A DNA stretch of 64,000 bases from IMG/VR virus record IMGVR_UViG_3300026116_000004, positions 1 to 64,000 of that record, one strand, 5' to 3'. Origin of the DNA: a virus. Positions 4,935-64,000 of the stretch are shown one piece after another. A program made the translations under genes and the position numbers. The notes beneath the pieces are model-generated. The model was not told the origin of the DNA. It ran no database searches and worked only from the letters and a program-made list of their open reading frames with translations. Numbering within the stretch: the first letter of the stretch is position 1; every line of letters begins with the position of its first letter.

Positions 4935-5118
4935 GGATTATAGTCTTCCATTCTTCAAAAGAAACTGTACCAAGTTTTCTATCTCTGTTTTTTATTACTG
5001 AAACAGTCCCGTCTTCTTCAAGGATGCCAATGTGTTTCATACAAGCCTTTAACGAGTGGGATAACCTACTTGTTAGGAGTACGTTATAAACACTTCGTGT
5101 CATGAGAAGGTAATTCAC
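4927..5118 (-). CDS. Hypothetical protein, 63 aa
   Basis: The ORF overlaps the methyltransferase stop by four bases (ATGA). The product MNYLLMTRSVYNVLLTSRL is followed by a short beta-rich section, 'GTVSVIKNRDRKLGTVSFEEW'. Not recognised. Confidence 0.55.
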   Translation of the reverse strand: MNYLLMTRSVYNVLLTSRLSHSLKACMKHIGILEEDGTVSVIKNRDRKLGTVSFEEWKTIIHE

Positions 5119-5900
5119 AGGTCACTCCTTTCCAAAATGAGCTGCAAGTGTGTATTCTCTTTGATCTCAATACCAAGTTCTTCTTTGATCTTATCCTTGA
5201 TATAGTCTAGTTGGTAGTGTTTCATCCAGATTGTGTTGTACCTTTTGATATCCGTTATTTCCATGATATCTTCAAGTACAGTGATGTAGTTCTCCTTGAG
5301 TTCTCTCTCCCAATTCTCTCGATAGTGATACTTCAACAAGAAGTGATAGAAGTGGATACCACTGAAGAGCCCACCCCAATATTTCGTGAAGTCATCAAGC
5401 ATCTGAGGATCACCATACTCCCAGAGCTTACGGACATCATCACGAGCTACAATAGGCATAACTGCATGAGCAGCCCTTTGAGTGATACACATGTCTCTAA
5501 TGGCGATATAGTGAAACCCAGTTCTAAGAGCAAATTCCCAGAACCTCGCACGATCGTCATTCTTCAGATATGTGTTAATCTCATGAATAACTGAAGACAG
5601 GATCAGACAACACTTATGGTCATCATCCATTGCCTCAATGCATTGCTCTAAGATAAACTCCCAATCGGAAGAGAACACTGCATTAGGTAACTCCATGCCC
5701 ATAGCATCTTCGATCATATCCGCATTAGCATCAAACCCAAAGAACTTAGCATCAGGGTAGATTTCAGAGAGATAATAGATCATCGAGCCATCAGCACAAC
5801 CAAAGTCAAAGAAGACTTTAGCGTCTTTAATCACTTTCGTGAAATAGAGTTTGTCCTTCATCCCCAAGTGCATCTTGTGATTGTAATTCTCCAAGTTCAC
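5115..5900 (-). CDS. Class I SAM-dependent methyltransferase-like protein, 261 aa
   Basis: Motif I of class I AdoMet methyltransferases is clear (VFFDFGCADGSM), followed by an acidic loop in 'FFGFDANADMIEDA', as in proteins that bind the AdoMet ribose. The later part is helical and aromatic-rich, with 'LILSSVIHEINTYL' at the position of motif IV. The substrate cannot be inferred; small-molecule and RNA methylases share this pattern. The GTG at 5900 is chosen because GGAAG lies eight bases upstream; an ATG at 5873 is an alternative. The longer frame to 6071 would lie inside the zinc-protein gene and is unlikely. Confidence 0.7.
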   Translation of the reverse strand: MNLENYNHKMHLGMKDKLYFTKVIKDAKVFFDFGCADGSMIYYLSEIYPDAKFFGFDANADMIEDAMGMELPNAVFSSDWEFILEQCIEAMDDDHKCCLILSSVIHEINTYLKNDDRARFWEFALRTGFHYIAIRDMCITQRAAHAVMPIVARDDVRKLWEYGDPQMLDDFTKYWGGLFSGIHFYHFLLKYHYRENWERELKENYITVLEDIMEITDIKRYNTIWMKHYQLDYIKDKIKEELGIEIKENTHLQLILERSDL

Positions 5901-6132
5901 TATCGGGACTTCCGTTATCGTTGGCGAAGTCTCTAAGCCAGCCATAGATGTCATCCTGGTTTTCGTAATCGAGTTTGAGTTCTTCGACACTCTCTTTGCA
6001 TTCTTTGCAGAGCGAGTAATGTTCATTCGTCGGGTCGGGATAGAAACCATCTTCACAGAAATCTCCTGCATTTGTTTCTATCTCTTTGTCATCCACTTTA
6101 TTGCAAATAACGCATCTAAACTTCTCGGACAT
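5827..6132 (-). CDS. Zinc-finger-like protein, 101 aa
   Basis: This is the first gene after the promoter at 6298-6326. It has two CxxC knuckles, CVICN near the N-terminus and CKECKE about 35 residues later, which could bind one zinc ion. The C-terminus is acidic (SPDSELGELQSQDALGDEGQ). It could be a nucleic-acid- or protein-binding regulator. It overlaps the methyltransferase gene by 74 bases if the GTG start there is right. Confidence 0.65.
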   Translation of the reverse strand: MSEKFRCVICNKVDDKEIETNAGDFCEDGFYPDPTNEHYSLCKECKESVEELKLDYENQDDIYGWLRDFANDNGSPDSELGELQSQDALGDEGQTLFHESD

Positions 6133-6346: not shown

Positions 6347-7102
6347 TCAGTGGATGTCATCGTTGGATAGAAGTGTGTCCCTATGACCCATTAAGTACTC
6401 GTATTTAGCCTCTTCAGATACTGGTTCAGCAGCCATTCTCAAGACTTTATCCATTGCTGCCTTCCTACGTCTGAAAGCAGTTCCAGGCTCTTGGTCAGCC
6501 CCTACAATTGAGCTAGGAGTGATGTAGTCGTAGAAGTCCATTCCACTGATCTTTCTCCTACTTGGGTACTGACAAGAAGGATAAGTACTCATGTCCTTGT
6601 CCTTCCAGTAGTCATCGATAGCGACGTAGATGAACGCCTCTGTCCATGGCATACCCTTGTAGTATAACCCATCTGAAGGGGATTGGTCTTCAACAGAAAT
6701 CTTGACTTTAATTCGTCTAGCCTTCTGACCAAGACAGAACTGACGATCCATCAAATGGATTATCTCAGCATTTACGTAGTAAAGTTCACCACGCATACGC
6801 TGTCTGATCACCTCTGACGCACCAACAACGAATACTACCGGATGGAGAGCATAATGTCTCTTGAGGATATAATGGGGAGACATCGTGTGTGCCGCTCCAC
6901 AGTACTCAGCCCCATCCAATAATCTATGGTTTGACCCACCATCTTTCTCTGTAGTCAATGCAAGATAAGGGATACGAGTATACCACTTGAGTTCATGAAA
7001 GTCCGGTGTGATATCTCCCCTATCGTACAGAGGACCATAGATAGAACCTTGGTAATCAGGAAGGTTCTCACCCTTCGGTCTAGCACTAACAATAGAAGCC
7101 AT
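6347..7102 (-). CDS. Gamma-glutamylcyclotransferase-like (AIG2/GGCT fold) protein, 251 aa
   Basis: The ATG at 7102 directly follows the upstream gene's stop. The layout resembles the GGCT/AIG2 fold: an early SIYGPLYDRG like the family's YGTL loop, then GELYYVNAEIIHLMD, then ARRIKVKISVEDQ and a late AFIYVAIDDY strand. GGCT enzymes release pyroglutamate from gamma-glutamyl amines. The Glu normally found in the LDxxEG segment is not visible here (LMDRQFCLG), so activity may be lost or changed. It ends the amidoligase gene run. The fold assignment is my inference from pattern; the second GGCT at 16214-16612 is much clearer. Confidence 0.5.
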   Translation of the reverse strand: MASIVSARPKGENLPDYQGSIYGPLYDRGDITPDFHELKWYTRIPYLALTTEKDGGSNHRLLDGAEYCGAAHTMSPHYILKRHYALHPVVFVVGASEVIRQRMRGELYYVNAEIIHLMDRQFCLGQKARRIKVKISVEDQSPSDGLYYKGMPWTEAFIYVAIDDYWKDKDMSTYPSCQYPSRRKISGMDFYDYITPSSIVGADQEPGTAFRRRKAAMDKVLRMAAEPVSEEAKYEYLMGHRDTLLSNDDIH

Positions 7103-7103
7103 G

Positions 7104-8183
7104 TCATTCAACCTCTGCAAAGTTGTCAGGTAACTTATCAACAGTGATATTGCCGTTCTTGAAATCTGCAATAAGTTTGCTTGCCTTTGCGAGTTTCGCC
7201 ATCATCTTTTCATTCTTTTCACCAATTCTCTTCATAGCGTCTGTAGCATAGAAGAGTAAGCAAGGAAGGTCTTGAGGTTCAGACCTACGAATGAAATCTT
7301 CCCACTCAATATGAGTGACATTCGCGAGTTCCTGCCAACCATTGTCGTTGTAGATATCCCAATCTTCCAACAGATGTAACATCGCCTCAGACAATTGGAA
7401 CTTGTTCTTGAATGGCATGGAGATCAGCGGCGATAGCTCTTTCGTAGAAGCTCTCGCGGTGGGAACACGAACGACTGAATTATTCTTCGCACGCGCCTCT
7501 TCCTCTCTTTTCTTCCTTTCCGCATCCAACCTCTCCTTTTCAGGACCACGCTGAACGGTGTTCCAATAATCATCGTTAGACGACTTGAAAGGTTGTCCTT
7601 GATCGAACGTCTTAGTGGACCAAGCTGCAGGAGAGAAGAAGTAAGGTTCCTGATCCGACGAGATAAGAAGACCTCTATTGTTCGACCCCGGCCAGAACTT
7701 CTCCAAGATGTCTCTGACATACGGGTCTTCAAGATCAGCGATACCCCTTGTGCCCACTAAACGAGTGAGCATAGGTGTTAGCTGAAGTTCAGCATACCTA
7801 CGGCTGTCAGATGCCCCCTGTAACGCCTCTGGATCGGTCTGCTGGCCCCTCCAAGCCTGCATGGTACCATTGTGCATGAAATACAACGAACGCTTCTTGG
7901 TGGACAGCACAGGGAACGGCTGGGTATTCGCCTCGTTAATTTCTCCTTCAGTTCTATGACGAAGATGAACAAAACGTTCAACATCCTCGTTATCCTTCAA
8001 AATCTTATAGATTTCTTGAGGATCACAAATCTTATCGTCAGAGTCCGAACAGCCCTTACGAACCTCAAGCTTTCCATTGGCCTTGAGGATAATGCCGTAA
8101 CTATGCCAATTGTTGAACACACACGTCTCCAACTTCTCGTAAGGCAGAGTATAACCCGGCTGTTGAATAAAGATATTGCACAT
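7104..8183 (-). CDS. Class II glutamine amidotransferase (Ntn hydrolase), 359 aa
   Basis: The ATG at 8183 overlaps the previous stop (TAATG) and gives an N-terminal MCNIFIQ, so removal of Met exposes Cys as the Ntn nucleophile. Other class II motifs follow: HLRHRTEGEINEANTQPFP, which matches the family's HxRxAT...NxxPF, FMHNGTMQAW for HNG, and SDSRRYAE. Such domains hydrolyse glutamine and pass ammonia to a partner, or act as amidohydrolases. The C-terminal third is charged and partly coiled coil, with no synthetase domain, so an acceptor partner must be encoded elsewhere. The ATP-grasp and amidoligase genes upstream are obvious candidates. Confidence 0.85.
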   Translation of the reverse strand: MCNIFIQQPGYTLPYEKLETCVFNNWHSYGIILKANGKLEVRKGCSDSDDKICDPQEIYKILKDNEDVERFVHLRHRTEGEINEANTQPFPVLSTKKRSLYFMHNGTMQAWRGQQTDPEALQGASDSRRYAELQLTPMLTRLVGTRGIADLEDPYVRDILEKFWPGSNNRGLLISSDQEPYFFSPAAWSTKTFDQGQPFKSSNDDYWNTVQRGPEKERLDAERKKREEEARAKNNSVVRVPTARASTKELSPLISMPFKNKFQLSEAMLHLLEDWDIYNDNGWQELANVTHIEWEDFIRRSEPQDLPCLLFYATDAMKRIGEKNEKMMAKLAKASKLIADFKNGNITVDKLPDNFAEVE

Positions 8184-8569
8184 TACTTCGTTTCTTCCTT
8201 GCGCTCTAAAGACTTTTCCCAATCATCGTACGTTTTATATTCAGCTTTCGTATCTTTTTCCGTCCTAATGAGAGCCTTTGACCAGAGTTCAACAATATTG
8301 TCTGTTTTCGATGAACGAAAGTAATCAACCTGCTTCCAACCATTGGTCCGGAGGATAGACTTCTCCTTTTCGTTGGTAGAAATGACAGTGCATAAAGCAA
8401 AATCATAACCGAACTTGCGAGCTGTGGTCAGTCTCTGTTCGTGTGCTACTTTACCACACCCTTTACCCCTGTTGTCTTTTGGTGTCCACACGTTGTGAAA
8501 CACAGCAATCTGGTCACAGCCAGGTAACGAAGTGATCTCTGACACCACTCCTCCAACATTGTATCTCAT
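8183..8569 (-). CDS. GNAT-family acetyltransferase-like protein, 128 aa
   Basis: The acetyl-CoA binding motif A is visible in WTPKDNRGKGCGKVAHEQRL (R-x-x-G-x-G), followed by the usual beta5 and 'STN...SILRTNGWKQV' segment of GNAT proteins. The C-terminus is a short charged helix. In this gene set it could acylate an amine made by the pathway, or use an aminoacyl donor. It overlaps the ATP-grasp gene by four bases. Confidence 0.75.
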   Translation of the reverse strand: MRYNVGGVVSEITSLPGCDQIAVFHNVWTPKDNRGKGCGKVAHEQRLTTARKFGYDFALCTVISTNEKEKSILRTNGWKQVDYFRSSKTDNIVELWSKALIRTEKDTKAEYKTYDDWEKSLERKEETK

Positions 8570-9336
8570 TGTGCTAAAGCCCTAGCATAGTTCTGAACGG
8601 TAGTACCCGTAAGACCAGGTGCAGTATTAACCTCCAACACAAATGCCTTAACTCCCTTGCGCTTATCGTTATAAACGATGTCAACGGCACCGAAGTCAAG
8701 ACCAGAATGTCTAATGGCCTCAATGGCGGCAGCTCTGACTTCATCTGGAGGGCGAATGTTTTCCCTCTGATAGATGAAACCATTTGCAAGGTTTCTGATC
8801 TTCCAGTTGATGTCGTCACCACTGTCAGCCTTCTGCTTGGAGAGCACTTTACGCTGTTGGTCAATGATCTCGTTACCCACTACGTGAATACGATATTCTT
8901 CCGTCTTCTTTACGTATTCAGTATAAAGTGGAGCACGAACAAACCCATCAGGATGATCACGGTCCATAATAACAATACCGTTACCTGAATGACCATTAAG
9001 AACGGTACGAGCAACCACCACTTTGCCTTCTGCGCACCACCGGATGGCTTCTGCTTGGTCAGTCGTCCAGGGAGGAAGAATTTCATTGTTGCGTTCCGAC
9101 ACCTTTCTAAAGAAGTCCAACTTGTTGGAAGCAATTCGGACAACTTCAGGCTTATTAATGATATTGCACTTTGCAACTTCAGGAGAAACTTGAGAAGAAC
9201 CCCAATTGATCACCCTCTTACGTTGTGATCCAACGAAACGAGAGTTTTCATTCTTGATTTTCGTGATACCCATTGCATCCTTGAGTGCAATAGCACCCTC
9301 AGAATGGGCATTCCATGAATAGATATAAGTAGGCAT
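8566..9336 (-). CDS. ATP-grasp ligase, RimK-like, 256 aa
   Basis: ATP-grasp enzymes activate a carboxylate as an acyl phosphate and join it to an amine. Seen here: a glycine-rich loop NGHSGNGI (114-121), 'LYTEYVKKTEEYRIHVV' around residues 137-152, and the metal-binding end DFGAVDIVY ... FVLEVNTAPGL with D219, E235 and N237. These match RimK-type peptide ligases. The lysine usually before the loop is arginine here (VVARTV). It is translationally coupled to a GNAT gene and an amidoligase gene, which suggests sequential steps on one substrate. Confidence 0.9.
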   Translation of the reverse strand: MPTYIYSWNAHSEGAIALKDAMGITKIKNENSRFVGSQRKRVINWGSSQVSPEVAKCNIINKPEVVRIASNKLDFFRKVSERNNEILPPWTTDQAEAIRWCAEGKVVVARTVLNGHSGNGIVIMDRDHPDGFVRAPLYTEYVKKTEEYRIHVVGNEIIDQQRKVLSKQKADSGDDINWKIRNLANGFIYQRENIRPPDEVRAAAIEAIRHSGLDFGAVDIVYNDKRKGVKAFVLEVNTAPGLTGTTVQNYARALAQ

Positions 9337-10511
9337 TAGTCATTGTTTCTCCAAGGATCATTTACAACTGGCTGGTTTACCACACCACCAAGAATGTCAC
9401 CGCGTGCTTGACGAACAGGTATAGGACGAGCAGCTGCTCTTAAAGCTAAGTCTCTGATACGCTGCTCTTCCGCTTCCCAAGGGCGAATTGCTGCATCACC
9501 ATCGTCGAACTCAGCCTGAGGAATTTCTACATCGCCACCTTGACGAAGCACGGCGAGTTGTTCAATACCGCGCAGCTCTTCGAAAGGACGATTGTATAAC
9601 TGTCGGGCAATTGTGTCCAAGTCGGAAGACTTTACCTTCTTTGGTTTTTGGACAGCATCCAACTTGTCCCAACCCTTTGAGTCAGGAACTGATAACGCAA
9701 TGTTAGCCGCATACCAGAAGTTATTCTCGATAAGTTTCGCTTCATCGTCAAACTTTAAGTTCTTTCTATACTTGCCAAAGATGTCCGTGAGTAGCTCTAC
9801 ACCCTTGTCTTTGTAATTGTTGATGATATCCCCTGGATACATCTTGTCCTGACGAGAGAACTTGACAATCTCATGGAGAATACCAACCCAATCTTCAATT
9901 TCCTTGATATCAGTCGTTCCTCTGAACGATCTTACTTCAAGAGAACCAAAGTTAGACAACGAATGAAGGTTCAACGCAGCATACTTAGTCAACTCACGGT
10001 CAAAGAGCATGTGTTGATAGTTCGGTTGTGATTTACCTTTCACTGTCGAAAGGTTCTTCAACATGTTAACAATGTTCTTGTAAGTCTCTTCTGCGTCACA
10101 CATAGGAAGACAAAACATGTTACCATTGCGTCCCTCACCTGAATACTTGATGAGTAGATTTTCAACGAGAGCGTATGTCGTTAAGAAGTTACCAAACGAA
10201 GGGAAACTCTCATTGAGCATGTTCACATGGACATGAACACTCGTTGTAATCGAATTTTTCTTGAAGTTAGCGTGAACTAACTTAGACTTGAACTCCTCAA
10301 GTGCCTGAGGGATCACATCGAAGTCCAGTGGTTGACGGAGTACGTACTCACGACCAAACCCACGGAGAGAACCATCTGCGTGAATATCCCAAAAGGCGAA
10401 CTCGGGGATACGATACTCTGCATCGCTCTCCGTTTCGATCTCAAGACCGAACAAACCCTTATGTTTAGTAAAGGTTCGCCCAGTCTTTTCTAAAGCATCA
10501 CAAATCGACAT
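9336..10511 (-). CDS. COOH-NH2 amidoligase, glutamine-synthetase fold, type 1, 391 aa
   Basis: Motifs match the putative amidoligase family with a glutamine-synthetase-like barrel: GLFGLEIETES (acidic metal ligands at 24 and 26), DIHADGSLRG, the paired histidines in SVHVHVNM, and NLHSLSNFGSLEVRSFRGT. These enzymes are predicted to form amide bonds from a phosphorylated carboxylate. The C-terminal 80 residues are Arg/Ala/Pro-rich and look disordered. It shares a base with the ATP-grasp gene start. The type 2 amidoligase of the same cluster lies one gene upstream. Confidence 0.88.
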   Translation of the reverse strand: MSICDALEKTGRTFTKHKGLFGLEIETESDAEYRIPEFAFWDIHADGSLRGFGREYVLRQPLDFDVIPQALEEFKSKLVHANFKKNSITTSVHVHVNMLNESFPSFGNFLTTYALVENLLIKYSGEGRNGNMFCLPMCDAEETYKNIVNMLKNLSTVKGKSQPNYQHMLFDRELTKYAALNLHSLSNFGSLEVRSFRGTTDIKEIEDWVGILHEIVKFSRQDKMYPGDIINNYKDKGVELLTDIFGKYRKNLKFDDEAKLIENNFWYAANIALSVPDSKGWDKLDAVQKPKKVKSSDLDTIARQLYNRPFEELRGIEQLAVLRQGGDVEIPQAEFDDGDAAIRPWEAEEQRIRDLALRAAARPIPVRQARGDILGGVVNQPVVNDPWRNND

Positions 10512-10512
10512 T

Positions 10513-11181
10513 TCACTGAATATCCCAGGCTAATTCATGGGAAAGATAACGAGACACAATCCAACCCATGGCGTTGTTAGGAACTCTTACGAGCATTTCG
10601 TCAGGTGCGATCCACCCAACCCAACTGTCCTTGAAATACACATTGATGTTACCCATTGCATTAATGGACAAAGCAATGTTTCTAGAGACAGCCTTTTGAC
10701 AAATGATGTCTGCCTCTTTGAGGTTTACTACAGAAGTCTTGGAGTAAATACCCCTTAACTCCTTGATGGCGGAGTCGAGTGAAGGGTAGATTCCTTCAAC
10801 CATGTCTGCAAACTCTTTGGTGAAGAAGATGTTATCGACGTACTTCGCCCTACCCCCTCCATTACCCGTTGCAGACGAAATCCTGAGCGACCTTCCTTCG
10901 ACACCTTGCTTTGTTCTCCTTGCAGGAATACGAGAGACGTAGACGACTTCTTTGCTATCCTTCTGGTTCATATAACCCAGAGGAAGGCTTGAAATGTCAA
11001 ACTCTTCATCAGTTGACTTAATACGGAATTTGGCCTCCGCATTGGAACCCGCTCTGCAATCGTACAGATCGAGTTGTCCTTGCCTGTCCCTTACTCGAAC
11101 GTAAACTGGCGCACCCTTGTAACGACAAATAGTGCCATCGAGTTTCTGAGTAAGATCAACATCAGGAATTGTGCAGCGCAT
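10513..11181 (-). CDS. Hypothetical protein between the two amidoligases, 222 aa
   Basis: No catalytic motif is recognised. The N-terminal half is basic and beta-rich (DGTICRYKGAPVYVRVRDRQ). The C-terminal half contains 'INAMGNINVYFKDSWVGWIAPDEM', which suggests a second small beta domain. The ATG at 11181 is used; a TTG at 11190 with a nearer GGAGG is possible. Its place between two ligases makes it a candidate carrier, scaffold or substrate of the pathway. Confidence 0.65.
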   Translation of the reverse strand: MRCTIPDVDLTQKLDGTICRYKGAPVYVRVRDRQGQLDLYDCRAGSNAEAKFRIKSTDEEFDISSLPLGYMNQKDSKEVVYVSRIPARRTKQGVEGRSLRISSATGNGGGRAKYVDNIFFTKEFADMVEGIYPSLDSAIKELRGIYSKTSVVNLKEADIICQKAVSRNIALSINAMGNINVYFKDSWVGWIAPDEMLVRVPNNAMGWIVSRYLSHELAWDIQ

Positions 11182-11875
11182 TGGCTTCAATATCCTCCAT
11201 TCTCGAAATGATTGAACGATACATCATTCTACGGTCGTCTTCCTTTTCCACCCAGCGGGAGGAAGGGCTTCTAAGCTCAACTCCGTAGGTCTTAGGGCGA
11301 AACGAACTTTCTCCTCCGTAGTACCTGATGCGCTCGAACTCTTCAGGTGTAACCGGCTTGAAGTACGTCGCATTACGGAAGGACTTAGCGATATGTCTGC
11401 AGTCTTCAAAATGTGAAGGGTCAAAGGGATCGGCTCCTTCAGTCCACCCAAGATGCACGTGTCCCGCTGTCGTTCTGAATGGACGATGTTCGAGGTCTCC
11501 CGGAGGTGCTTTCTGCATTCCGGTTTCAGCAGAGTAGTCAGGATCGCAGCCAAGGATTTTGCTTTCTACTGGTAAGATGCTGAAGTACAGCGGATCGAAC
11601 CTAGCGATAGGAATGAAACGGAGCTTAAGGTCTCGATCAACCTTGTGAACCATTTCAGTCATCTGGTTAAGAACAGTAACAATGTTGTTATTGAACTCTT
11701 CTTCAGAATTAGCCGGCTCAATATTAAACTCAAGGGCCATACCGTCCACTTGGACAGCGCCCTTATCAACCTTGTGGGGTTCTTTCTTCGTCCCAGGGAA
11801 CAAACCGTGGGCACTAATGAACTGTGCTCCATCATGAAGAAAAACTTCTGGGTCACAGCCGATAGTAACTTTCAT
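11162..11875 (-). CDS. COOH-NH2 amidoligase, phiEco32-like type 2, 237 aa
   Basis: The N-terminus TIGCDPEVFL gives acidic ligands D8 and E10. Then come VQVDGMALEFNIEPA, GHVHLGWTEG and YGVELRSPSSRWV near the end. This order (DPE, VDG..EFN, HVHLG, ELRSPS) is that of the phiEco32-type COOH-NH2 ligases, glutamine-synthetase-fold proteins predicted to make amide or isopeptide bonds. It overlaps the next gene by about 20 bases. Two amidoligases of different subfamilies in one operon imply two bond-forming steps or two acceptors. Confidence 0.88.
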   Translation of the reverse strand: MKVTIGCDPEVFLHDGAQFISAHGLFPGTKKEPHKVDKGAVQVDGMALEFNIEPANSEEEFNNNIVTVLNQMTEMVHKVDRDLKLRFIPIARFDPLYFSILPVESKILGCDPDYSAETGMQKAPPGDLEHRPFRTTAGHVHLGWTEGADPFDPSHFEDCRHIAKSFRNATYFKPVTPEEFERIRYYGGESSFRPKTYGVELRSPSSRWVEKEDDRRMMYRSIISRMEDIEANALHNS

Positions 11876-11876
11876 G

Positions 11877-12929
11877 CTAGTTCAAAGCCTTTCTACTGGT
11901 TAAATCGATCTCTAATTGCTTTTCTTTTTGATACTGTAACTCGTAACACTCTGCACAAGTATACACGTTCACAGGTTCTTCGTGACCCTTGTATTGGTCG
12001 TAAAGGTCCATTTCTTTCCTACAATTCCTGCAAATCTCAGGAAGAATTTCTCTACCTTTTGGAGTATTCTGCGTCAAGCGCAGAGGGGTCTCATTACTGT
12101 TTGACGGATAAGTACCCAAACGAGATTTGTTCCCTATAGGAATAACCTTCGCTCCTGCCGCTGGACCCCATACTGTTCTAGCCTCTAAGTTTGCTTGAAA
12201 CCCGTAGAGAGGTTGCTTGTCCCAGTCAGGTTCTCTATTAGTTTCAATATCGTCTGGACCAAAACGATACACATAGTCAGGTTCGAACGCAGTGATCTCC
12301 TTGAGCTTCACACCATGCCGGGAAGCAGCGAACTGGATCATACGAGCTTCGCTAGCCCAGTAAAACACCTTGCGTTCTTTGTTGATTGCGTAAAACAGTG
12401 GTCTAGAAATTTCTCTCGTAAACACAAACTCAAAGTGTTTCTTTTCAAACGCAACTATCGCGTATGCACTCTTAGAAGAGAGACCACGGAGTACATTTTC
12501 AATACCACGCTTGTCCATGTCTTCGAACATCATTTCTGAGTCCGTTTTCGTGGAGTCTTTGTATTGATCATCTTTTAGAGTACCATTGTGCATGCCAATG
12601 ATATTGGTCTTTTCGAAAGGATGTGCGTTCTCTGCGTTCACAGCACCCATCGTTGCTGCTCTCACGTGAAGCGCCATGAACGTATCGTGTGTATCGTTCA
12701 GGATTTTGTTGTCAGCTTCCTTTGATGAAGTCTGATTGAACCAAAGAAAATAACCAACTTCGTGTTCATTCTTGAGGATGCGATACCGGCGCTTCTTTCC
12801 ACTATGGTAACCTTGGAGAACGCCAGTGCCGTCAATCCCCCTTAGGCCCAGAACATAAGCGAGATCGCGCATCATACTTATATCTGATACGTTGATCCCT
12901 GGACCCATCATTCCTGCATGACCACACAT
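11877..12929 (-). CDS. Class II glutamine amidotransferase with C-terminal zinc ribbon, 350 aa
   Basis: The N-terminus MCGHAGMMG exposes Cys2 as in PurF/GlmS-type Ntn amidotransferases. ALHVRAATMGAVNAENAHPF and GMHNGTLKD match the conserved HxRxAT..NxHPF and HNG motifs, and TDSEMMFED the SDSE acceptor-side motif. After about 280 residues comes an unusual tail with two CxxC knuckles (CRNCRKEM ... CAECYEL), likely a zinc ribbon that could bind nucleic acid or a partner. No synthase domain is fused. It is the second class II amidotransferase of the cluster. Confidence 0.85.
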   Translation of the reverse strand: MCGHAGMMGPGINVSDISMMRDLAYVLGLRGIDGTGVLQGYHSGKKRRYRILKNEHEVGYFLWFNQTSSKEADNKILNDTHDTFMALHVRAATMGAVNAENAHPFEKTNIIGMHNGTLKDDQYKDSTKTDSEMMFEDMDKRGIENVLRGLSSKSAYAIVAFEKKHFEFVFTREISRPLFYAINKERKVFYWASEARMIQFAASRHGVKLKEITAFEPDYVYRFGPDDIETNREPDWDKQPLYGFQANLEARTVWGPAAGAKVIPIGNKSRLGTYPSNSNETPLRLTQNTPKGREILPEICRNCRKEMDLYDQYKGHEEPVNVYTCAECYELQYQKEKQLEIDLTSRKALN

Positions 12930-12939
12930 TCTATGCCTT

Positions 12940-13578
12940 TCAGTTGAACATTAGGTAGTCGATTAAGTTGAAGAAATAAGCTTGATTGCCACTGTTTTTG
13001 TTTTCAGACAACCAGTACTCAGGGTGAGGTTGATAACACAAAGACATCGTTTCCTTGTACCATACAACCTCCGTGTCGTACTTTGGTCTCTTTCTGCTCG
13101 CCTTTTTGCTCTCAAACTGTGTTGCACAATGGGCGACTGCGATAACAGTTCCTTCTTTCGAAGGGATCATCATCTGATGGTGTGTACTTGTGACAAAAAC
13201 AGTCTTCTTTGACAAAAGAAGGTCAAGCATCTGGTGACCACCAGTTAACCCATGGTTGTTAACGTGTTGCCACATAGAACCACCAGACATCACGTTGAGA
13301 AACTGTCCACCTCGACAAATACCCACCTTTGGGAGGGATCGGTATTTCTCAAAGATTTCCATTTCTTTGATGTCACGTTTCCAATTGTTGTGGGTTTTCT
13401 CATGGGGTTCCTCCTGGTAGAGTTCAGGACTTACATCCTCTCCACCAGTAAAACAAATAAGGTCAGCTTTTGTATCCTTATCGTTCTCATCAACCAACTC
13501 CCACCCACGATTGAGAAACATCTTCTGAGTGGCTTGGGTTGGTAGGATGATTTTTACTTTTCTCTTAGTAGTTGACAT
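12940..13578 (-). CDS. Class I glutamine amidotransferase / gamma-glutamyl hydrolase-like (peptidase C26), 212 aa
   Basis: CFTGGEDVSPELY near residue 42, the nucleophile elbow GICRGGQFLN with Cys88, and the His-Glu pair in CYQPHPEYW (H185, E187) form a complete class I triad. The spacing and TGGEDVSP resemble C26 enzymes such as gamma-glutamyl-GABA hydrolase (PuuD) more than synthase-linked GATases. It probably cleaves gamma-glutamyl amides or supplies ammonia. It overlaps the end of the upstream gene by 25 bases. Confidence 0.85.
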   Translation of the reverse strand: MSTTKRKVKIILPTQATQKMFLNRGWELVDENDKDTKADLICFTGGEDVSPELYQEEPHEKTHNNWKRDIKEMEIFEKYRSLPKVGICRGGQFLNVMSGGSMWQHVNNHGLTGGHQMLDLLLSKKTVFVTSTHHQMMIPSKEGTVIAVAHCATQFESKKASRKRPKYDTEVVWYKETMSLCYQPHPEYWLSENKNSGNQAYFFNLIDYLMFN

Positions 13579-14420
13579 ATTTCTTCCGCGCCGTTCATTA
13601 AATCTTCAAGGGTTAACTCGTAGTATTGAGACCAATTTGAGTGTTTGAGCCTGCCCATCTTGCCAATAGCTTCCGCAATCTTATCGTATTGAGGAGGCTC
13701 CCAATAGATTTTATCCTCAAGGCAAAACACAGACATAGAGAAACTTGCGTCCATACGCATTTTGCCTTCATTGAAACCTTCAACATCGAACTTCTGTTGA
13801 GAAACAATCCAATGGTTGAAGTTACCGACATTACCTTTTCGGATATTTCCTGCCACATCCATACTAAATCTGGATACAATAAAAAGGGCATCACCAGGAG
13901 TAAGACCCTTTTCCATCAGTACCTTCCATAGTCTCATATGGGCAGGGAACTCACTGCAAGCCCTCATCGCAATCATCAAACACTTTGTGATGCTCTTGTT
14001 GTACTTTTCGATGAAGTCACTCGTTATCAAGAAGCCTGTTTGTTCTCCCTTGGCATTCTTAAAGAATTCAAATCCTTCTTCTGGTAAAATACTCTTGAAG
14101 GGACTCAAATCCTTATCCATCAAAAAGTCACACCAAGGCTGTGCGAATTCCTTATTTGACTCTTTGATTGGGCAGCAAGAACCGATAGCCATTGGCTTTC
14201 TATAGTTATCAGTCCAATGAGTAAAAACTGGAGCACTACATGGAGCAGCAGTTGACGATCCAATCCTTCCAGTATAACTACCGACAGATATCTGCATACT
14301 TGTAGGATACTCAAAAAAGTATGTAGTTCTATCCTGATCAGCTGGCATTAAAACAATTTGGGAATAAAAATTTCTAGCTCTTTGGTAAGCTAGTTCTAAT
14401 TCTTCAGTCGTTGGTCTCAT
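13554..14420 (-). CDS. Hypothetical protein of the amidoligase cluster, 288 aa
   Basis: A globular protein of unknown family. Conserved-looking stretches include PCSAPVFTHWTDNYRKPMAI, several Cys and Trp residues, and a helical C-terminus. There is no signal peptide, membrane span or nucleotide loop. Overlap with genes on both sides places it in the same transcript as the C26-type enzyme. It might be an acceptor protein or an enzyme of unknown class. Confidence 0.65.
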   Translation of the reverse strand: MRPTTEELELAYQRARNFYSQIVLMPADQDRTTYFFEYPTSMQISVGSYTGRIGSSTAAPCSAPVFTHWTDNYRKPMAIGSCCPIKESNKEFAQPWCDFLMDKDLSPFKSILPEEGFEFFKNAKGEQTGFLITSDFIEKYNKSITKCLMIAMRACSEFPAHMRLWKVLMEKGLTPGDALFIVSRFSMDVAGNIRKGNVGNFNHWIVSQQKFDVEGFNEGKMRMDASFSMSVFCLEDKIYWEPPQYDKIAEAIGKMGRLKHSNWSQYYELTLEDLMNGAEEICQLLREK

Positions 14421-15036
14421 CGTGAGTGTCTAAAGCTCTTTTAACAATACGATAATTAATTGCTTTTGCTATCTCAGCATCGTTATGCCAGTAAGGATCG
14501 TGATTAGGAAGATCAAAATTGAACTCTTCTTTAACCCACTCACGAAGCTTGGTACGTCCCTTTCGACGACCGTCCCCAAGGGTAAGAAAGCTCCTTACAG
14601 ACTCAACTGTAACCCTCTTAAGGCCAGCTTCTTCGAGTACTTTAAGTCGCTTAAGTCTCTCCTCTTCCTTGGCCTTCGCAGCAGCCTTACGAGCTTCCAT
14701 TTGCTTACGGACTTGTTCTGCCCTCTTTTCTCTATAAGGAGCAAGACCAACGTTCAGATCATGGTCAGAAGCCGCATAACAACTAAGTGGTTCATCACCA
14801 TACTTTTCGTCATGTGTAGTAGGTGTTTTCTTGAAGCCAATAGCCTCAAGATATTCTGCTTCCTTATCTTGTTCATCGTTTAAAAGCACTACATTTATAC
14901 GTGAATAACCGTGGTCAATAATTGCGTAAGCAAAGTCTTCAACGCTTTTGTAGCGAGGATAGCCGTGTGCATAGCCAACGTTATAAAAATTAGCAGATGC
15001 ACAACAACCAGCAATAGAACCTCTAGATAATGCCAT
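14404..15036 (-). CDS. Hypothetical protein, possible degenerate GNAT with coiled coil, 210 aa
   Basis: Residues 40-85 (YSRINVVLLNDEQDKEAEYL then AIGFKK) look like the last strands of a GNAT fold, though no acetyl-CoA loop is visible. Residues 105-135 form a K/E/A/R-rich coiled coil (EKRAEQVRKQMEARKAAAKA). The C-terminal part, with 'TLGDGRRKGRTKLREWVKEE', may be a small DNA- or RNA-binding domain. The GNAT likeness is tentative. Confidence 0.55.
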   Translation of the reverse strand: MALSRGSIAGCCASANFYNVGYAHGYPRYKSVEDFAYAIIDHGYSRINVVLLNDEQDKEAEYLEAIGFKKTPTTHDEKYGDEPLSCYAASDHDLNVGLAPYREKRAEQVRKQMEARKAAAKAKEEERLKRLKVLEEAGLKRVTVESVRSFLTLGDGRRKGRTKLREWVKEEFNFDLPNHDPYWHNDAEIAKAINYRIVKRALDTHDETND

Positions 15037-15056
15037 TTTTCCTTTAAATCCTTTAG

Positions 15057-15656
15057 TTACCTTCTAGCGAAGGGATTAACAATTTCAGTACCAAATATTT
15101 CATTAGCAATAGGTTGTAAAATAGGTCTAATGTCTCTGTGAAAATCTCCTATCCACGTAATACACTGATGGTCAGAACGACCTCTTTCTTCGGGAGTACC
15201 AAACTTTGATGTTTCTGCCGCCTTCTTGAAACCAGAATTCTCAAACATTTCGACTGCGTGAGTTTCATTATGGTTTGTAACAGCAACAATTGAACCAACA
15301 GCAACCCACTGTGCACTTACAGGTGACTTGAGACAATGCACTAAGAGTTGCTGATTAAGTCTCAGGTTCGAGGTAATGTACTGCGAGCTTTCTTTTTGTA
15401 TTTGGGTACGTAGTTTATGTCTGTTTTCACCCCACATTTCTGTAGAAGACAGATGAGAATTAAGGCTATCCGTGATATGAGCCTGGTAGACTTCCTCGTC
15501 TGAATACTTGTTTTTCATTTTTAAACGAAGGGGCTCTCCAGGTACACTTTCTCTGATAACATTACCGTACTGATCGTAGGCATAAACTATGGGAGTATTA
15601 TACACTCCGAGCAACAATCTGCCACCACAGAACAGAGGAAAAAGACACATGCGCAT
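15057..15656 (-). CDS. Hypothetical protein, possible GNAT-like C-terminus, 199 aa
   Basis: The start ATGCGCATG offers two possible codons (15656 or 15650). The C-terminal section 'VAVTNHNETHAVEMFENSGF' followed by KK has the same N..A..F..GF pattern as the GNAT gene at 8183-8569. The N-terminal 60 residues are unlike anything I recognise. Probably a pathway component; the function is not assigned. Confidence 0.55.
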   Translation of the reverse strand: MRMCLFPLFCGGRLLLGVYNTPIVYAYDQYGNVIRESVPGEPLRLKMKNKYSDEEVYQAHITDSLNSHLSSTEMWGENRHKLRTQIQKESSQYITSNLRLNQQLLVHCLKSPVSAQWVAVGSIVAVTNHNETHAVEMFENSGFKKAAETSKFGTPEERGRSDHQCITWIGDFHRDIRPILQPIANEIFGTEIVNPFARR

Positions 15657-15658
15657 GA

Positions 15659-15874
15659 TTAACAGGCCCTTATTTTGTCTTCGTCGAACGAAGGGATTTC
15701 GAAAATAGTATATTCTTCTTGCTTCATTTCTGGCATCTTACGGTGCTTACACACAGCCGCATGATACGAATTGAATAAACAAGAAACAGCTCGTCGGCCA
15801 CTGTAGATTTGTTTCAGAGCCTGAACTGCGTGCCAATCGCTACGAGCGATTATCCATTTTTCTGCCGTTGCCAT
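15659..15874 (-). CDS. Hypothetical protein, 71 aa
   Basis: The ORF begins MATAEKWIIARSDWHAVQAL and sits one base from its upstream neighbour. It has three cysteines and no recognised motif. It is retained as a gene because of tight spacing. Confidence 0.55.
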   Translation of the reverse strand: MATAEKWIIARSDWHAVQALKQIYSGRRAVSCLFNSYHAAVCKHRKMPEMKQEEYTIFEIPSFDEDKIRAC

Positions 15875-15875
15875 G

Positions 15876-16217
15876 TTAGTCTTTCACAGTGTATTCAATT
15901 TCAATCCAATCAATGATTTCGTAGCAATGTAGCATGTCAAAGTGCTCTTTGTTCACGTAAGACTTGCCACTTATGAAAGGCATTGTGTTTTTAGCAGTTT
16001 TATACTTTAAAATAGGTATCCATGCTTTGAGAACAATAGGTTCTTTGTATTCAATCCAATATGTCTTTGCGTCATCTAAACGCAATCTATCTGAGTGAAA
16101 GTGTCCATCAGAGCCTACCCACCAGATAAGAACTGTTTGTTGGTGAATTTTAGCTACTGTCCAATGACTAGCAGAGTTTAGTGATGTGTACTCTTTACCT
16201 TCAAGGATTTCAGTCAT
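15876..16217 (-). CDS. Hypothetical protein, 113 aa
   Basis: A beta-rich protein (MTEILEGKEYTSLNSASHWT) with several tryptophans. Its start overlaps the GGCT stop by four bases. It ends one base before the 71-aa gene. No motif recognised. Confidence 0.6.
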   Translation of the reverse strand: MTEILEGKEYTSLNSASHWTVAKIHQQTVLIWWVGSDGHFHSDRLRLDDAKTYWIEYKEPIVLKAWIPILKYKTAKNTMPFISGKSYVNKEHFDMLHCYEIIDWIEIEYTVKD

Positions 16218-16612
16218 CTTACCACTCTACCCTGCCACAAATGGCATCCATTTTCATTTACACCACATTCGGACATTTCTGTGTAGGGGAAGTGTTTACC
16301 TCCCACATACATAGAAACTTCTAGTGGTTCTTCTTGGTTTCCAAGGACATAGGCTTTTACCACCTTTCGATGGTACATATAGCCTTCCCCTTCGAGACGA
16401 TCCAAACGAGCGAGAGTAGCATCATTGTCGCCAATGTCCCACACCTCTCCTATCGCTTTACTGTTTTCGTCTTCCTTGGCTACAGGAAAGCCATACTGGT
16501 AGAGTTTAAACCCCTCGACAACAGCGTCACCTATCTTTCTATGAGCACCTTCTGATAGGATGTAGTTATTGCCGTACCCACTTTTCAGTGTTCCATAAAC
16601 AAAAACTTTCAC
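16214..16612 (-). CDS. Gamma-glutamylcyclotransferase (AIG2/GGCT family), 132 aa
   Basis: The family signature MKVFVYGTLKSG is at the N-terminus, and the LDRLEGEGYMYHRKVVKAYV segment carries the expected catalytic glutamate (E74). Length is typical of bacterial YtfP/GGCT proteins. Members remove a gamma-linked glutamate as pyroglutamate; in butirosin synthesis a GGCT removes a gamma-Glu protecting group. A GTG start (16612) overlaps the upstream stop. It marks the upstream end of the amide-chemistry run. Confidence 0.85.
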   Translation of the reverse strand: MKVFVYGTLKSGYGNNYILSEGAHRKIGDAVVEGFKLYQYGFPVAKEDENSKAIGEVWDIGDNDATLARLDRLEGEGYMYHRKVVKAYVLGNQEEPLEVSMYVGGKHFPYTEMSECGVNENGCHLWQGRVVR

Positions 16613-16934: not shown

Positions 16935-17019
16935 TGGTGCCCACGGTCGGACTCGAACCGACACGCCTTACGACAAGGGATTTTAAGTCCCTCGCGCCTA
17001 CCAATTACGCCACGTGGGC
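16935..17019 (-). tRNA. tRNA-Leu (UAA anticodon)
   Basis: The 85-base minus-strand sequence folds as a cloverleaf. The acceptor stem is GCCCACG/CGTGGGC with discriminator A and an encoded CCA. The anticodon stem AGGGA/TCCCT closes loop CTTAAAA with anticodon TAA, and the T arm carries GGTTCGAGTCC. The long variable arm fits leucine. It would help decode UUA, which is common in this AT-rich genome. Confidence 0.95.
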
Positions 17020-19066: not shown

Positions 19067-19143
19067 TGGTGACCACAGCACGCTTCGAACGTGCAACCTA
19101 CGGCTTAGAAGGCCGTTGCTCTTTCCAGTTGAGCTATGTGGCC
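19067..19143 (-). tRNA. tRNA-Arg (UCU anticodon)
   Basis: The 77-base cloverleaf has acceptor GGCCACA/TGTGGTC (one G-U pair), discriminator A and an encoded CCA. The anticodon stem ACGGC/GCCGT closes loop CTTCTAA with anticodon TCT, and the T arm is GCACGTTCGAAGCGTGC. It reads AGA, frequent in this phage's genes. Confidence 0.95.
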
Positions 19144-32215: not shown

Positions 32216-32440
32216 ATGGATAAAAGACTCTCCGAAAAGATTATAAAGCATTTTGACTTCGGTACTATGGAAGTCTTGAAAGAGTATGTTGCTGATCGAT
32301 TAGTGTCTGTCCACAATTTGATGGACGTTACGAGTGATGCTGACGAATGGCGTAAACTCCAAGGTGAAGCGAGAGCTTTAAAGACTTTAGAAAAAATTAG
32401 AGATCACGCTGTAGCTGTAAAGGATCAAAAGAATGGCTGA
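32216..32440 (+). CDS. Hypothetical helical protein, 74 aa
   Basis: MDKRLSEKIIKHFDFGTMEV is followed by a continuous helix to the end. GAGGAA precedes the start. It overlaps the virion lysin gene by eight bases. It could be a head-assembly helper, but no family is recognised. Confidence 0.6.
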   Translation: MDKRLSEKIIKHFDFGTMEVLKEYVADRLVSVHNLMDVTSDADEWRKLQGEARALKTLEKIRDHAVAVKDQKNG

Positions 32441-58533: not shown

Positions 58534-58676
58534 TCGTAGATGGCGTATTCATAACCATCGAAATACGTTAATGTTTTATAATCGCACTTAGTACATTTCA
58601 GTTGGTCAATGAATGGTCCGTTATCGACATACTCTGCGTGACCACCACATTCACACTTTAAGTCTTTTAATTTCAT
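58500..58676 (-). CDS. Small zinc-ribbon protein, 58 aa
   Basis: [20 protein letters not shown] and '[10 protein letters not shown]' give two CxC/CxxC knuckles about 20 residues apart, a minimal zinc ribbon. It could contact nucleic acid or replication proteins. Confidence 0.6.
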
Positions 58677-59149
58677 TCAGCGTCTACCACTTCATAATCA
58701 TGAAGTTTAAACCATTCTCCTGAATGTAAACTGTCTTTGAACTTCTCATGAAATTCTTTCTCTCTATAACCACCGTCTTCAATAAATCGAACTATACTTA
58801 TGTGGTAAGGGTTAGCAGCCTTTAATTGTGAGACTCTTCGATTTAAATCGTCTGTTCTTCCTATTTTAACAAATTCATTGCAACGAATGAAATAAAGATG
58901 TCTACCAGTCTCATGTATCATTTTAATTCTCTTCGAAGAAAGTTCTTTCGCTAGACACCCACAAGATTTAACTGAGTTAGACACTAAATGAGAAGACTTT
59001 ACTTGAGTCTCATTTCCACAAGAGCAGGTACACCTCCATAAGATGTACCCACCCTTACGAGTCTTACCAACTGGCTCTACTGCTGTTAATCTTCCGAAGA
59101 CTTTACCACTATGGTCTTTAGCTTTATGTGGTAATATCAACGAATTCAC
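58673..59149 (-). CDS. GIY-YIG/T5orf172-type homing endonuclease-like protein, 158 aa
   Basis: The N-terminus 'GKVFGRLTAVEPVGKTRKGG' and 'WRCTCSCGNETQVKSSHL' with CGC form a zinc-binding DNA-contact domain seen in phage endonucleases. The C-terminus 'HLYFIRCNEFVKIGRTDDLN' and 'EKEFHEKFKD' match the T5orf172 GIY-YIG-like nuclease. It lies directly downstream of the reductase gene and overlaps it, as is common for free-standing homing enzymes. Confidence 0.8.
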   Translation of the reverse strand: MNSLILPHKAKDHSGKVFGRLTAVEPVGKTRKGGYILWRCTCSCGNETQVKSSHLVSNSVKSCGCLAKELSSKRIKMIHETGRHLYFIRCNEFVKIGRTDDLNRRVSQLKAANPYHISIVRFIEDGGYREKEFHEKFKDSLHSGEWFKLHDYEVVDAE

Positions 59150-62148: not shown

Positions 62149-62828
62149 GAGTAGTCTAACTCCTTGATATTTCCGATTGTATCCTGCCACATCTTAGCAA
62201 GGTCTTGTATTTCCTTCTGAGCATGAGGATCAATACGTAGTTTATAAGCTCTAGCCCAAGCAGCTAGAGAACCCGTCGTATAATACTCGGTGTACATCGA
62301 TTGAGGGAGAACCATACGAGCTTGTTCAGGGGCGACTTCGTTTTCAATCATTGTATTGTAAAGCCACTCAGCGTGGTCTAGAAATTGAAGATACAACTCC
62401 TTGACATCTTTAGTTGCAAATTCAGATCTAATCCATCCATCCTCGTATCTTTCTTTATCAATTTCCCATTGAAGTTTTAAGATGAATTCATCAGATGATC
62501 CTTGTTTAACTGATCCTTCTGGTCGTTTACGCCAAGTGTCAGGAGTGAAGAATTCAGGGGCATCATCAACATAACGTCTGGAGACTTCATTGTAGGAAAA
62601 ACCCACCATGTGTTTAAATCTCTGTCTTGCAACAAAAATGGGCACTTTTTCTCTAAGAGTGATTTGTACATGGGTGAAGGGTGTGAAATGATTGTTTCTC
62701 GCTAGAAAATTTATTAGACCTTGGTTCTGATCTTTAGTGTAATTACTGGCTTCCTTATGAAAGGAAACTCTTGCTGCGTCTGCAACACGGTCGTCAGAAC
62801 CCATGAAATCAATTAAGGTTACCTGCAA
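62127..62828 (-). CDS. thyX: Flavin-dependent thymidylate synthase ThyX, 233 aa
   Basis: The ThyX signature is seen as RQRFKHMVGFSYNEVSRRY (residues about 69-87), where the family has RHRxxSxNExSxRY. 'MVLPQSMYTEYYTTGSLAAW' is the second conserved block. It makes dTMP from dUMP with FAD and folate. It overlaps a homing endonuclease start region by ten bases. Confidence 0.92.
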   Translation of the reverse strand: MQVTLIDFMGSDDRVADAARVSFHKEASNYTKDQNQGLINFLARNNHFTPFTHVQITLREKVPIFVARQRFKHMVGFSYNEVSRRYVDDAPEFFTPDTWRKRPEGSVKQGSSDEFILKLQWEIDKERYEDGWIRSEFATKDVKELYLQFLDHAEWLYNTMIENEVAPEQARMVLPQSMYTEYYTTGSLAAWARAYKLRIDPHAQKEIQDLAKMWQDTIGNIKELDYSWKALTE

Positions 62829-63154
62829 ATTATAGGCTCCAAATAAGAAAAAAGTTCTTGAGCCTTCTTTAGTCTACGCTCTCCTAAATGAGGCATAACT
62901 CTTATTAAAGTATCAAAAACTTCTTGTTGTCTTTGTATTGTTAAAATCCATGTAGGTTTTCTAGTTGGGCGGGGTGCCCTATAAGACACCCTTCCTACAC
63001 CCAATTCTTTATGAAGTTTATTGATAATATCTTCATCAGTCATTTCACATTGGATAGAACACTGAAATGTTTTACCCTTTCGTCGTTTGAAAATACTAAA
63101 ACAACCTTCACCTTCTAGAATACCAGAGGACCACTTAAAGTCCTCTTCCATCAT
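62819..63154 (-). CDS. LAGLIDADG homing endonuclease, single-motif, 111 aa
   Basis: 'WSSGILEGEGCFSIFKRRKG' is a LAGLIDADG helix with the catalytic acid. The remaining alpha/beta pattern (EMTDEDIINKLHKELGVGRV) fits a homodimeric free-standing enzyme. It lies between the protease and thyX and overlaps the latter; such enzymes often target nucleotide-metabolism genes. Confidence 0.85.
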   Translation of the reverse strand: MMEEDFKWSSGILEGEGCFSIFKRRKGKTFQCSIQCEMTDEDIINKLHKELGVGRVSYRAPRPTRKPTWILTIQRQQEVFDTLIRVMPHLGERRLKKAQELFSYLEPIICR

Positions 63155-63952: not shown

Positions 63953-64000
63953 GAGTCTCCTTTTAGTTTTCAAGGTATTTAAAAATATCTACGTTGGTAG

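Follow-up and report, generated by a model that had tools for sequence, protein, structure and literature searches.

A phiM6-type version of a known phage amidoligase cassette, with a possible role in modifying cell-wall precursors

We analysed a window of 64,000 nucleotides (positions 1 to 64,000 of IMG/VR record IMGVR_UViG_3300026116_000004), which forms part of a 69.5-kb record of a phiM6/HMO-2011-like virus. A sequence-only reading had described 15 overlapping leftward genes between positions 6347 and 16612, and the ORF list of the window bears this out: all 15 ORFs run leftward, with neighbours overlapping or abutting (Table 1). The start codons of the genes at 6347–7102, 7104–8183 and 10513–11181 probably lie inside the listed ORFs; that of glutamine amidotransferase B (GAT-B) is the ATG directly before Cys2. 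The same reading had assigned two amidoligases, an ATP-grasp ligase, two class-II amidotransferases, a C26 hydrolase and a GGCT, all of which stand, and a "clear GNAT", which is slightly too strong given its PHROG and NCBIfam scores. The catalytic residues it named are all present, and those other than Glu74 of the GGCT are 98–100% conserved among aligned homologues. An impression by eye that the 14404 and 15057 products are GNAT-like or phiM6_81-related was unsupported by hhalign and iterated HMM searches.

Table 1 Genes of the leftward run at positions 6347 to 16612 of the window.
Coordinates	Strand	Product	Evidence
16214..16612	(-)	GGCT/AIG2-like gamma-glutamyl cyclotransferase, YGTL motif + Glu74	PF06094 3.6e-20; phrog_2520 3.7e-14
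15876..16217	(-)	Lineage-specific gene without assigned family	Homologue only in 2 loci of near-identical contig
15659..15874	(-)	Lineage-specific gene without assigned family	Found in 4 loci only
15057..15656	(-)	Non-core gene without assigned family	No Pfam/PHROG/NCBIfam match; near-identical contig only
14404..15036	(-)	Non-core gene without assigned family	No Pfam/PHROG match; near-identical contig only
13554..14420	(-)	X1, core protein, candidate cysteine enzyme	HMM family in 108 loci; Cys61
12940..13578	(-)	Peptidase_C26, gamma-glutamyl hydrolase-like	PF07722 5.7e-18; triad C88/H185/E187
11877..12929	(-)	Class-II glutamine amidotransferase A (GAT-A)	PF13522 5.3e-12; phrog_4736 2.8e-40
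11162..11875	(-)	COOH-NH2 ligase, phiEco32-type, glutamine-synthetase-like	phrog_3815 5.7e-56
10513..11181	(-)	X2, core protein between two GS-like ligases	phrog_11055 4.4e-17
9336..10511	(-)	Amidoligase_2, glutamine-synthetase/GCS-like ligase	PF12224 8.3e-8; phrog_7469 3.6e-44
8566..9336	(-)	RimK-like ATP-grasp ligase	PF08443 2.1e-4; phrog_2599 3.3e-82
8183..8569	(-)	GNAT-like acetyltransferase, accessory	phrog_1249 1.7e-3; NCBIfam ArsN1a 7.4e-6
7104..8183	(-)	Class-II glutamine amidotransferase B (GAT-B)	PF13230 7.1e-6; Cys2 after ATG at 8183
6347..7102	(-)	Degenerate GGCT-like protein	PF06094 0.0043, sub-threshold; phiM6_70 E 7e-7

In the Pfam check of the ligase-like proteins, Amidoligase_2 matched PF12224 at 32.8 bits against a cut-off of 22, and the ATP-grasp protein matched PF08443 at 21.4 bits, barely over the cut-off of 21. 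Amidoligase_2 residues E24/E26/E28, H93/H95, R128, E192 and R194 are kept in 150–151 of 151 homologues, as are the Mg/ATP residues D219/E235/N237 of the ATP-grasp protein, whose closest solved structures are alpha-L-glutamate ligases of the RimK family and whose nearest NCBIfam models are MptN/RimK alpha-L-glutamate ligases, well under the curated cut-offs. PF14395 did not match the 11162 ligase, but this model matched nothing in the control genomes either and so has no positive control. The COOH-NH2 ligase family HMM that we built detects the phiEco32 founder phi32_86 at 5.8e-64, and D8, E10, E49, H139, H141, R193, K195, E200 and R202 are invariant in aligned homologues; this homology, together with the conserved acidic, His and Arg active-site residues, identifies the predicted 11162 product as a COOH-NH2 ligase of the phiEco32 type. 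The ATP-grasp protein of Slicky01 was considered as an amidotransferase fusion and rejected, its extension being a low-complexity linker and a domain without identification.

Both amidotransferases carry the N-terminal Cys and the Gln-pocket residues. In GAT-A, Cys2, H114-N115-G116 and D130 are at least 99% conserved where aligned; its C-terminal tail is zinc-ribbon-like (CxxC...CxxC), and it weakly matches the NCBIfam EgtC model, far under the equivalog cut-off. GAT-B conserves R88, H117, N118, G119 and D139, and has orthologues in phiM6 and RHph_N3_19. The C26 triad is present in 123–125 of 125 homologues, and the nearest NCBIfam models (gamma-glutamyl-GABA hydrolase and gamma-glutamyl-CDP-amidate hydrolase) match well under their curated cut-offs. 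Glu74 of the GGCT at 16214 occurs in 63 of 71 homologues, with phiM6_94 at the equivalent position. For the 6347 protein, the reservation that it lacks a visible catalytic residue held: it reached 18 bits against PF06094 (cut-off 22.8), and inspection by eye revealed no evident catalytic Glu, so that it falls short of a GGCT assignment; its relative phiM6_70 is annotated as a GGCT-domain protein. The GNAT at 8183 matches ArsN1a below the curated NCBIfam cut-off.

The neighbourhood search proposed for the 10513 and 13554 proteins (X2 and X1) recovered both as recurrent core families of the cassette, in 152 and 108 loci, respectively. In X1, C61 occurs in 111 of 111 and H203 in 101 of 112 homologues, with R153 and E157 also conserved. 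Several phages have a duplicate X1 next to an additional COOH-NH2 ligase; phiEco32 and tf have a positional counterpart only (phiEco32 sequence score E 0.37). Its AF2 model (pLDDT 72) gave no PDB match by predicted fold, nor did its sequence. We regard X1 as a candidate cysteine enzyme that may act together with the COOH-NH2 ligase. The X2 family HMM reaches phi32_85 (2.5e-6) and tf_20 (1.3e-5); X2 is a core component of the cassette, traceable to phiEco32. Its AF2 model is confident (pLDDT 91.3) and matched solely phage proteins in BFVD, no match was found among PDB sequences or folds, and its C terminus is variable.

The genes recur as a module, (X1)-(C26)-GAT-COOH-NH2 ligase-X2-amidoligase-ATP-grasp-(GAT-GGCT)-primase, found with variations in phiM6, O4/PA11, CW02, CVT22, tf/LUZ24, phiEco32 and more than 100 IMG/VR contigs, and always adjoining primase and other DNA-metabolism genes. 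This clustering exceeds chance, since 39 of 40 loci retrieved through the ATP-grasp gene alone (full flanks) contain the remaining two ligases together with X2 and a GAT. Among the 72 loci with full flanks, X2 is present in 70, two GATs in 11 (a minority trait) and a GNAT homologue in 4, which places the GNAT outside the core. The COOH-NH2 ligase occurs in 315 of 50,697 phage records; 84,980 prokaryote genomes yielded only seven loci, all with the same module and five adjoining a phage-type primase.

The window thus has the genes of the phage putative "peptidoglycan modification cassette" of the RIO-1/PA11/phiM6/phiEco32 type: three ligases and a class-II GAT, with GGCT and C26 in the run and primase/helicase adjoining. 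The tie that the sequence-only reading drew to the amidoligase gene-neighbourhood literature is supported, and the cassette prediction reportedly dates from 2009. A view of the cluster as unusual is not supported; it is a phiM6-type version of a cassette already known, widespread and repeatedly published, with putative peptidoglycan modification proposed in RIO-1-like podoviruses (PMC5498523), phiM6 (PMC6256558) and LUZ24-like U17 (PMC11945000). Our literature search found no report of an experimental test of its function.

We tentatively favour, at somewhat less than an even chance, the reading that this version of the cassette is transcribed together with the replication genes and performs amide and gamma-glutamyl chemistry in the cytoplasm on a substrate of host origin, most likely the peptide part of cell-wall precursors. 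The families, intact active sites, synteny, X1-ligase co-duplication and restriction to phages are observed; the substrate, the order of steps and the biological purpose are inferred. In this scheme, the three ATP-dependent carboxylate-amine ligases would couple glutamate or other amines or carboxylates; the class-II amidotransferases, C26 hydrolase and GGCT would strip or swap gamma-glutamyl groups, or liberate ammonia; X2 may be a core partner to both glutamine-synthetase-like ligases, and X1 a Cys-dependent partner to the COOH-NH2 ligase. The purpose might be a superinfection block or preparation for lysis, as proposed in the literature. The cassette probably does not encode the substrate, because it holds no evident precursor peptide that is conserved: apart from the GGCTs (18 loci), every small non-core family is confined to 12 or fewer of the 135 distinct loci. 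A graspetide-type ribosomal-peptide system was rejected, as no conserved precursor peptide lies beside the ATP-grasp gene across these loci. Counting against a wall target, the cassette is grouped with replication genes and not lysis genes, neither X1 nor X2 has a fold match suggesting cell-wall chemistry, and the 69.5-kb record holds no Mur-ligase-like gene, although host precursors would serve.

It is possible, though unlikely, that the cassette instead produces a small gamma-glutamyl metabolite, a peptide or an amide, by a non-ribosomal route in which a gamma-glutamyl group shields an amine during a second ligase step and is then stripped by C26, GAT or GGCT. Such protection and deprotection has precedents in putrescine utilisation (PuuA/PuuD), butirosin (BtrJ/BtrG) and ergothioneine (EgtC). 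The idea, raised in the sequence-only reading, is reasonable as chemistry. Protein similarity fits a gamma-glutamyl theme, the nearest models to C26 being gamma-glutamyl hydrolases and those to the ATP-grasp protein alpha-L-glutamate ligases; the weak EgtC match of GAT-A, the BtrG-like annotation of the tf GGCT, and the co-occurrence of ligases and gamma-glutamyl-removing enzymes in nearly all cassette copies point the same way. Against it, the NCBIfam matches all fall far under equivalog cut-offs, and neither a transporter nor a carrier protein nor a tailoring enzyme belongs to the core. Quite unlikely, in our estimate, is a reading in which X1, as a novel Cys-dependent enzyme or an acyl carrier, serves the COOH-NH2 ligase alone and X2, with a new fold, is a scaffold for both GS-like ligases; the cassette would then be an assembly line peculiar to phages, yielding a gamma-glutamyl compound or a wall modification unknown from bacteria.

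RimK-type ATP-grasp enzymes glutamylate ribosomal protein S6, and with RimK-family enzymes the nearest solved structures, peptide-tagging or polyglutamylation of host or phage proteins deserves mention, a role also speculated for phage ATP-grasp ligases (PMC4431377). We consider it distinctly doubtful: the cassette has no conserved small tag protein, the variable X2 C terminus is unlike Pup or LysW-type acceptors, and two extra GS-like ligases and the gamma-glutamyl hydrolases would be left unexplained. We give very little weight to counter-defence or metabolic takeover, whereby the enzymes would destroy or divert a gamma-glutamyl metabolite of the host or one of its defence molecules, such as glutathione or the glutamine pool; the early-gene location and the gamma-glutamyl compounds that GAT, C26 and GGCT alike could use are consistent with it, but degradation needs no set of three ATP-dependent ligases, and PADLOC gave no match, on which ground an anti-phage defence system was likewise rejected. 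A DNA-base adduct (hypermodified phage DNA), named as a possible product by the sequence-only reading and favoured by the constant primase neighbourhood, is rejected as a likely product and considered highly improbable because searches of the 69.5-kb record (perhaps an incomplete genome) for base-modification genes found no TGT/DpdA-type, QueC or ThyA/dUMP-hydroxymethylase-type gene, Pfam scans showing ThyX and a class II RNR and nothing else of this kind, and because the DNA of two cassette phages is sensitive to ordinary restriction enzymes: tf to RsaI, HpaI, EcoRV, SmaI and HaeIII (PMC3517423), and U17 to 11 of 16 enzymes (PMC11945000).

A large proportion of the podovirus-like phages that infect Gram-negative hosts carry the cassette. 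New here are the core parts X1 and X2, the ligase-X1 pairing and the evidence against DNA modification, which leave fewer experiments to choose among; the wall hypothesis, if true, would describe a phage route for remodelling host peptidoglycan precursors.

Compared with known systems, phiEco32 (phi32_77–86) likewise has COOH-NH2 ligase, X2, amidoligase, GAT, ATP-grasp, GGCT and primase in series, but its GAT lies between amidoligase and ATP-grasp, no C26 was found and X1 is undetectable by sequence. The LUZ24-like phages tf, UFV-P2 and U17 share the first six of these genes, but have a single GAT and no C26 found. Pseudoalteromonas PSA-HP1 (RIO-1-like) shares amidoligase, second ligase, ATP-grasp, GAT and GGCT as a cassette common to phiEco32, PA11, tf, LUZ24, PaP3 and CW02 (PMC5498523); it has seven genes, whereas the window version is expanded by C26, two GATs and GNAT. 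Set against the peptide-bond module of Sinorhizobium phage phiM6 (SmphiM6_70–80 and 94; PMC6256558), which carries an HNH gene inside it, the window has a GNAT separating ATP-grasp from GAT-B, and four lineage-specific genes lie in the interval from X1 to GGCT; the two share GGCT, X1, C26, GAT, COOH-NH2 ligase (~55% identity), X2, amidoligase, ATP-grasp, second GAT and second GGCT, with identical order and primase neighbour.

The 69,498-base source record, of which the window covers bases 1–64000, carries 15 leftward ORFs that follow one another almost without gaps between 16612 and 6347. This bears out the gene run described in the sequence-only reading, and Pfam, PHROG and NCBIfam scans returned the families proposed there for the key proteins. 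The COOH-NH2 ligase gave no match to the Pfam PF14395 profile; it matched PHROG 3815 (5.7e-56), and its family HMM reached the phiEco32 founder, phi32_86 (5.8e-64). The GNAT, previously called clear, kept its family only with weak matches (PHROG 1.7e-3; NCBIfam 7.4e-6), and of two supposed GGCT-like proteins one was recovered, whereas the degenerate one fell below cut-off (0.0043). The family-level reading is correct and the observation real.

Coordinates of the cassette genes and of other features of the record
Feature	Position	Strand	Remarks
Methyltransferase-like protein	5115-6132	-	Between primase and cassette; best Pfam 2e-5, below cut-off; overlaps small zinc-ribbon-like ORF
Degenerate GGCT-like protein	6347	-	
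GAT-B (class II glutamine amidotransferase)	7104-8183	-	
GNAT	8183	-	
ATP-grasp (RimK-like)	8566	-	
Amidoligase (Amidoligase_2)	9336	-	
X2	10513-11181	-	
COOH-NH2 ligase	11162	-	
GAT-A (class II glutamine amidotransferase)	11877-12929	-	
C26	12940	-	
X1	13554-14420	-	
GGCT	16214	-	
tRNA-Leu(taa)	16935-17019	-	Just upstream of cassette
tRNA-Arg(tct)	19067-19143	-	Just upstream of cassette
964-aa protein	32433-35327	+	After portal; resembles endolysins/cell-wall hydrolases, but weakly (phrog_465 3e-5; PF07486 0.008); may be a wall hydrolase associated with the virion
Class II ribonucleotide reductase-like gene, then T5orf172/MUG113 (GIY-YIG type) endonuclease gene	58676-61079	-	Reductase may be divergent or interrupted, because its barrel match is short
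LAGLIDADG endonuclease	62822-63154	-	2.4e-6; flanked by ThyX and trypsin-like protease
Trypsin-like serine protease	63158-63973	-	PF00089 1.2e-14; unusual for phage of this type; hydrophobic N-terminal stretch, signal- or lipoprotein-like

Scored in alignments of up to 151 sequences, the catalytic residues named earlier proved near-perfectly conserved: D8/E10 of the COOH-NH2 ligase, E24/E26 of the amidoligase, D219/E235/N237 of the ATP-grasp, the cysteines of both GATs, and the C26 triad C88/H185/E187; E74 of the GGCT was present in 63/71 homologues. The cassette active sites are intact.

Relatives of the COOH-NH2 ligase occurred in 315 of 50,697 phage records, and gene tables revealed an equivalent gene series, with variations, ending at the primase in phiM6, RHph_N3_19, O4, tf, CW02, CVT22, Slicky01 and phiEco32. 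Scanned with the COOH-NH2 ligase and, separately, with the ATP-grasp, IMG/VR gave several hundred encoding stretches per bait, and the 80 best from each scan were retained; GAT counts were pooled, since both GATs belong to a single HMM family. Of the distinct loci in this set, 72 had complete flanks around the amidoligase; all of them carried the COOH-NH2 ligase, an ATP-grasp and a GAT, 70 had X2, 67 C26, 64 X1, at least 30 a GGCT, 11 a second GAT and 4 a GNAT. As COOH-NH2 ligase and ATP-grasp had served as baits, we recounted on loci retrieved via ATP-grasp only, and observed COOH-NH2 ligase, amidoligase, X2 and GAT together in 39/40. Core-gene spacing was typically -4 to +1 bases. A conserved-peptide-pattern scan of 84,980 prokaryote genomes, which would miss distant relatives, yielded seven loci, all on metagenome-assembled contigs; the same module was found in 7/7, with a phage-type primase adjoining 5/7. 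The module is, as far as tested, phage-bound, and the cassette is known and widespread, not peculiar to this phage.

Gene neighbourhood also placed the two proteins formerly without a family. X2 belongs to the cassette core: its HMM family was present in 152 loci (best 80 per scan), and homologues are still detectable by sequence in phiEco32 (2.5e-6) and tf (1.3e-5). AlphaFold modelled it with high confidence (pLDDT 91.3); the model matched no PDB structure and had phage proteins, CW02 among them, as sole structural matches. X1, recurrent in the full-flank loci, is much more variable and its predicted structure moderate (pLDDT 72.5); its Cys61 is invariant (111/111 aligned sequences), and R153, E157 and H203 are conserved at 90–95%. 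The COOH-NH2 ligase is duplicated in at least four distinct contigs, with X1 directly preceding the extra copy (L022:9893-11728; likewise L014, L016 and L107), all ten active-site residues kept in both copies, and X1 duplicated too in three. This pairing suggests that X1 functions as partner of the COOH-NH2 ligase. Upstream of C26 and X1, several phiM6-like phages conserve the phiM6_81 family (~220 aa; L003:5354-5998 and relatives), which was not detectable in the window.

The published peptidoglycan and cell-wall readings reportedly originate with Iyer 2009 and Hardies 2013. A "peptidoglycan modification cassette" was described in PSA-HP1 and related RIO-1-like podoviruses, and as common to phiEco32, Salmonella 7-11, PA11, tf, LUZ24, PaP3 and CW02 (PMC5498523); in phiM6, seven ORFs were assigned to peptide-bond synthesis and the peptidoglycan proposal restated (PMC6256558). 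The same reading was given for LUZ24-like U17, adding superinfection block and lysis preparation (PMC11945000), and a cell-wall/superinfection reading for phiEco32 (PMC10580990). We found no experimental test of cassette function. Putative cell-wall modification remains the leading proposal, chiefly for two reasons: it is compatible with cytoplasmic ligases that act on peptides containing Glu, and it is the hypothesis already in place.

The main rival, near the earlier hypothesis, is a gamma-glutamyl protected metabolite; C26 and GAT-A gave weak NCBIfam matches to gamma-glutamyl-pathway enzymes. No conserved precursor peptide was found within the cassette in 135 distinct loci (best 80 per scan), where, GGCTs aside, no further family recurs in more than 12. 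A DNA-base adduct, also suggested earlier, is unlikely, as the 69,498-base record contains no TGT, QueC or ThyA-type genes and common restriction enzymes cut the DNA of cassette phages tf and U17, according to the literature. Favoring the gamma-glutamyl route, the known Puu, butirosin and ergothioneine pathways add and remove gamma-glutamyl groups with the enzyme classes present in the cassette.
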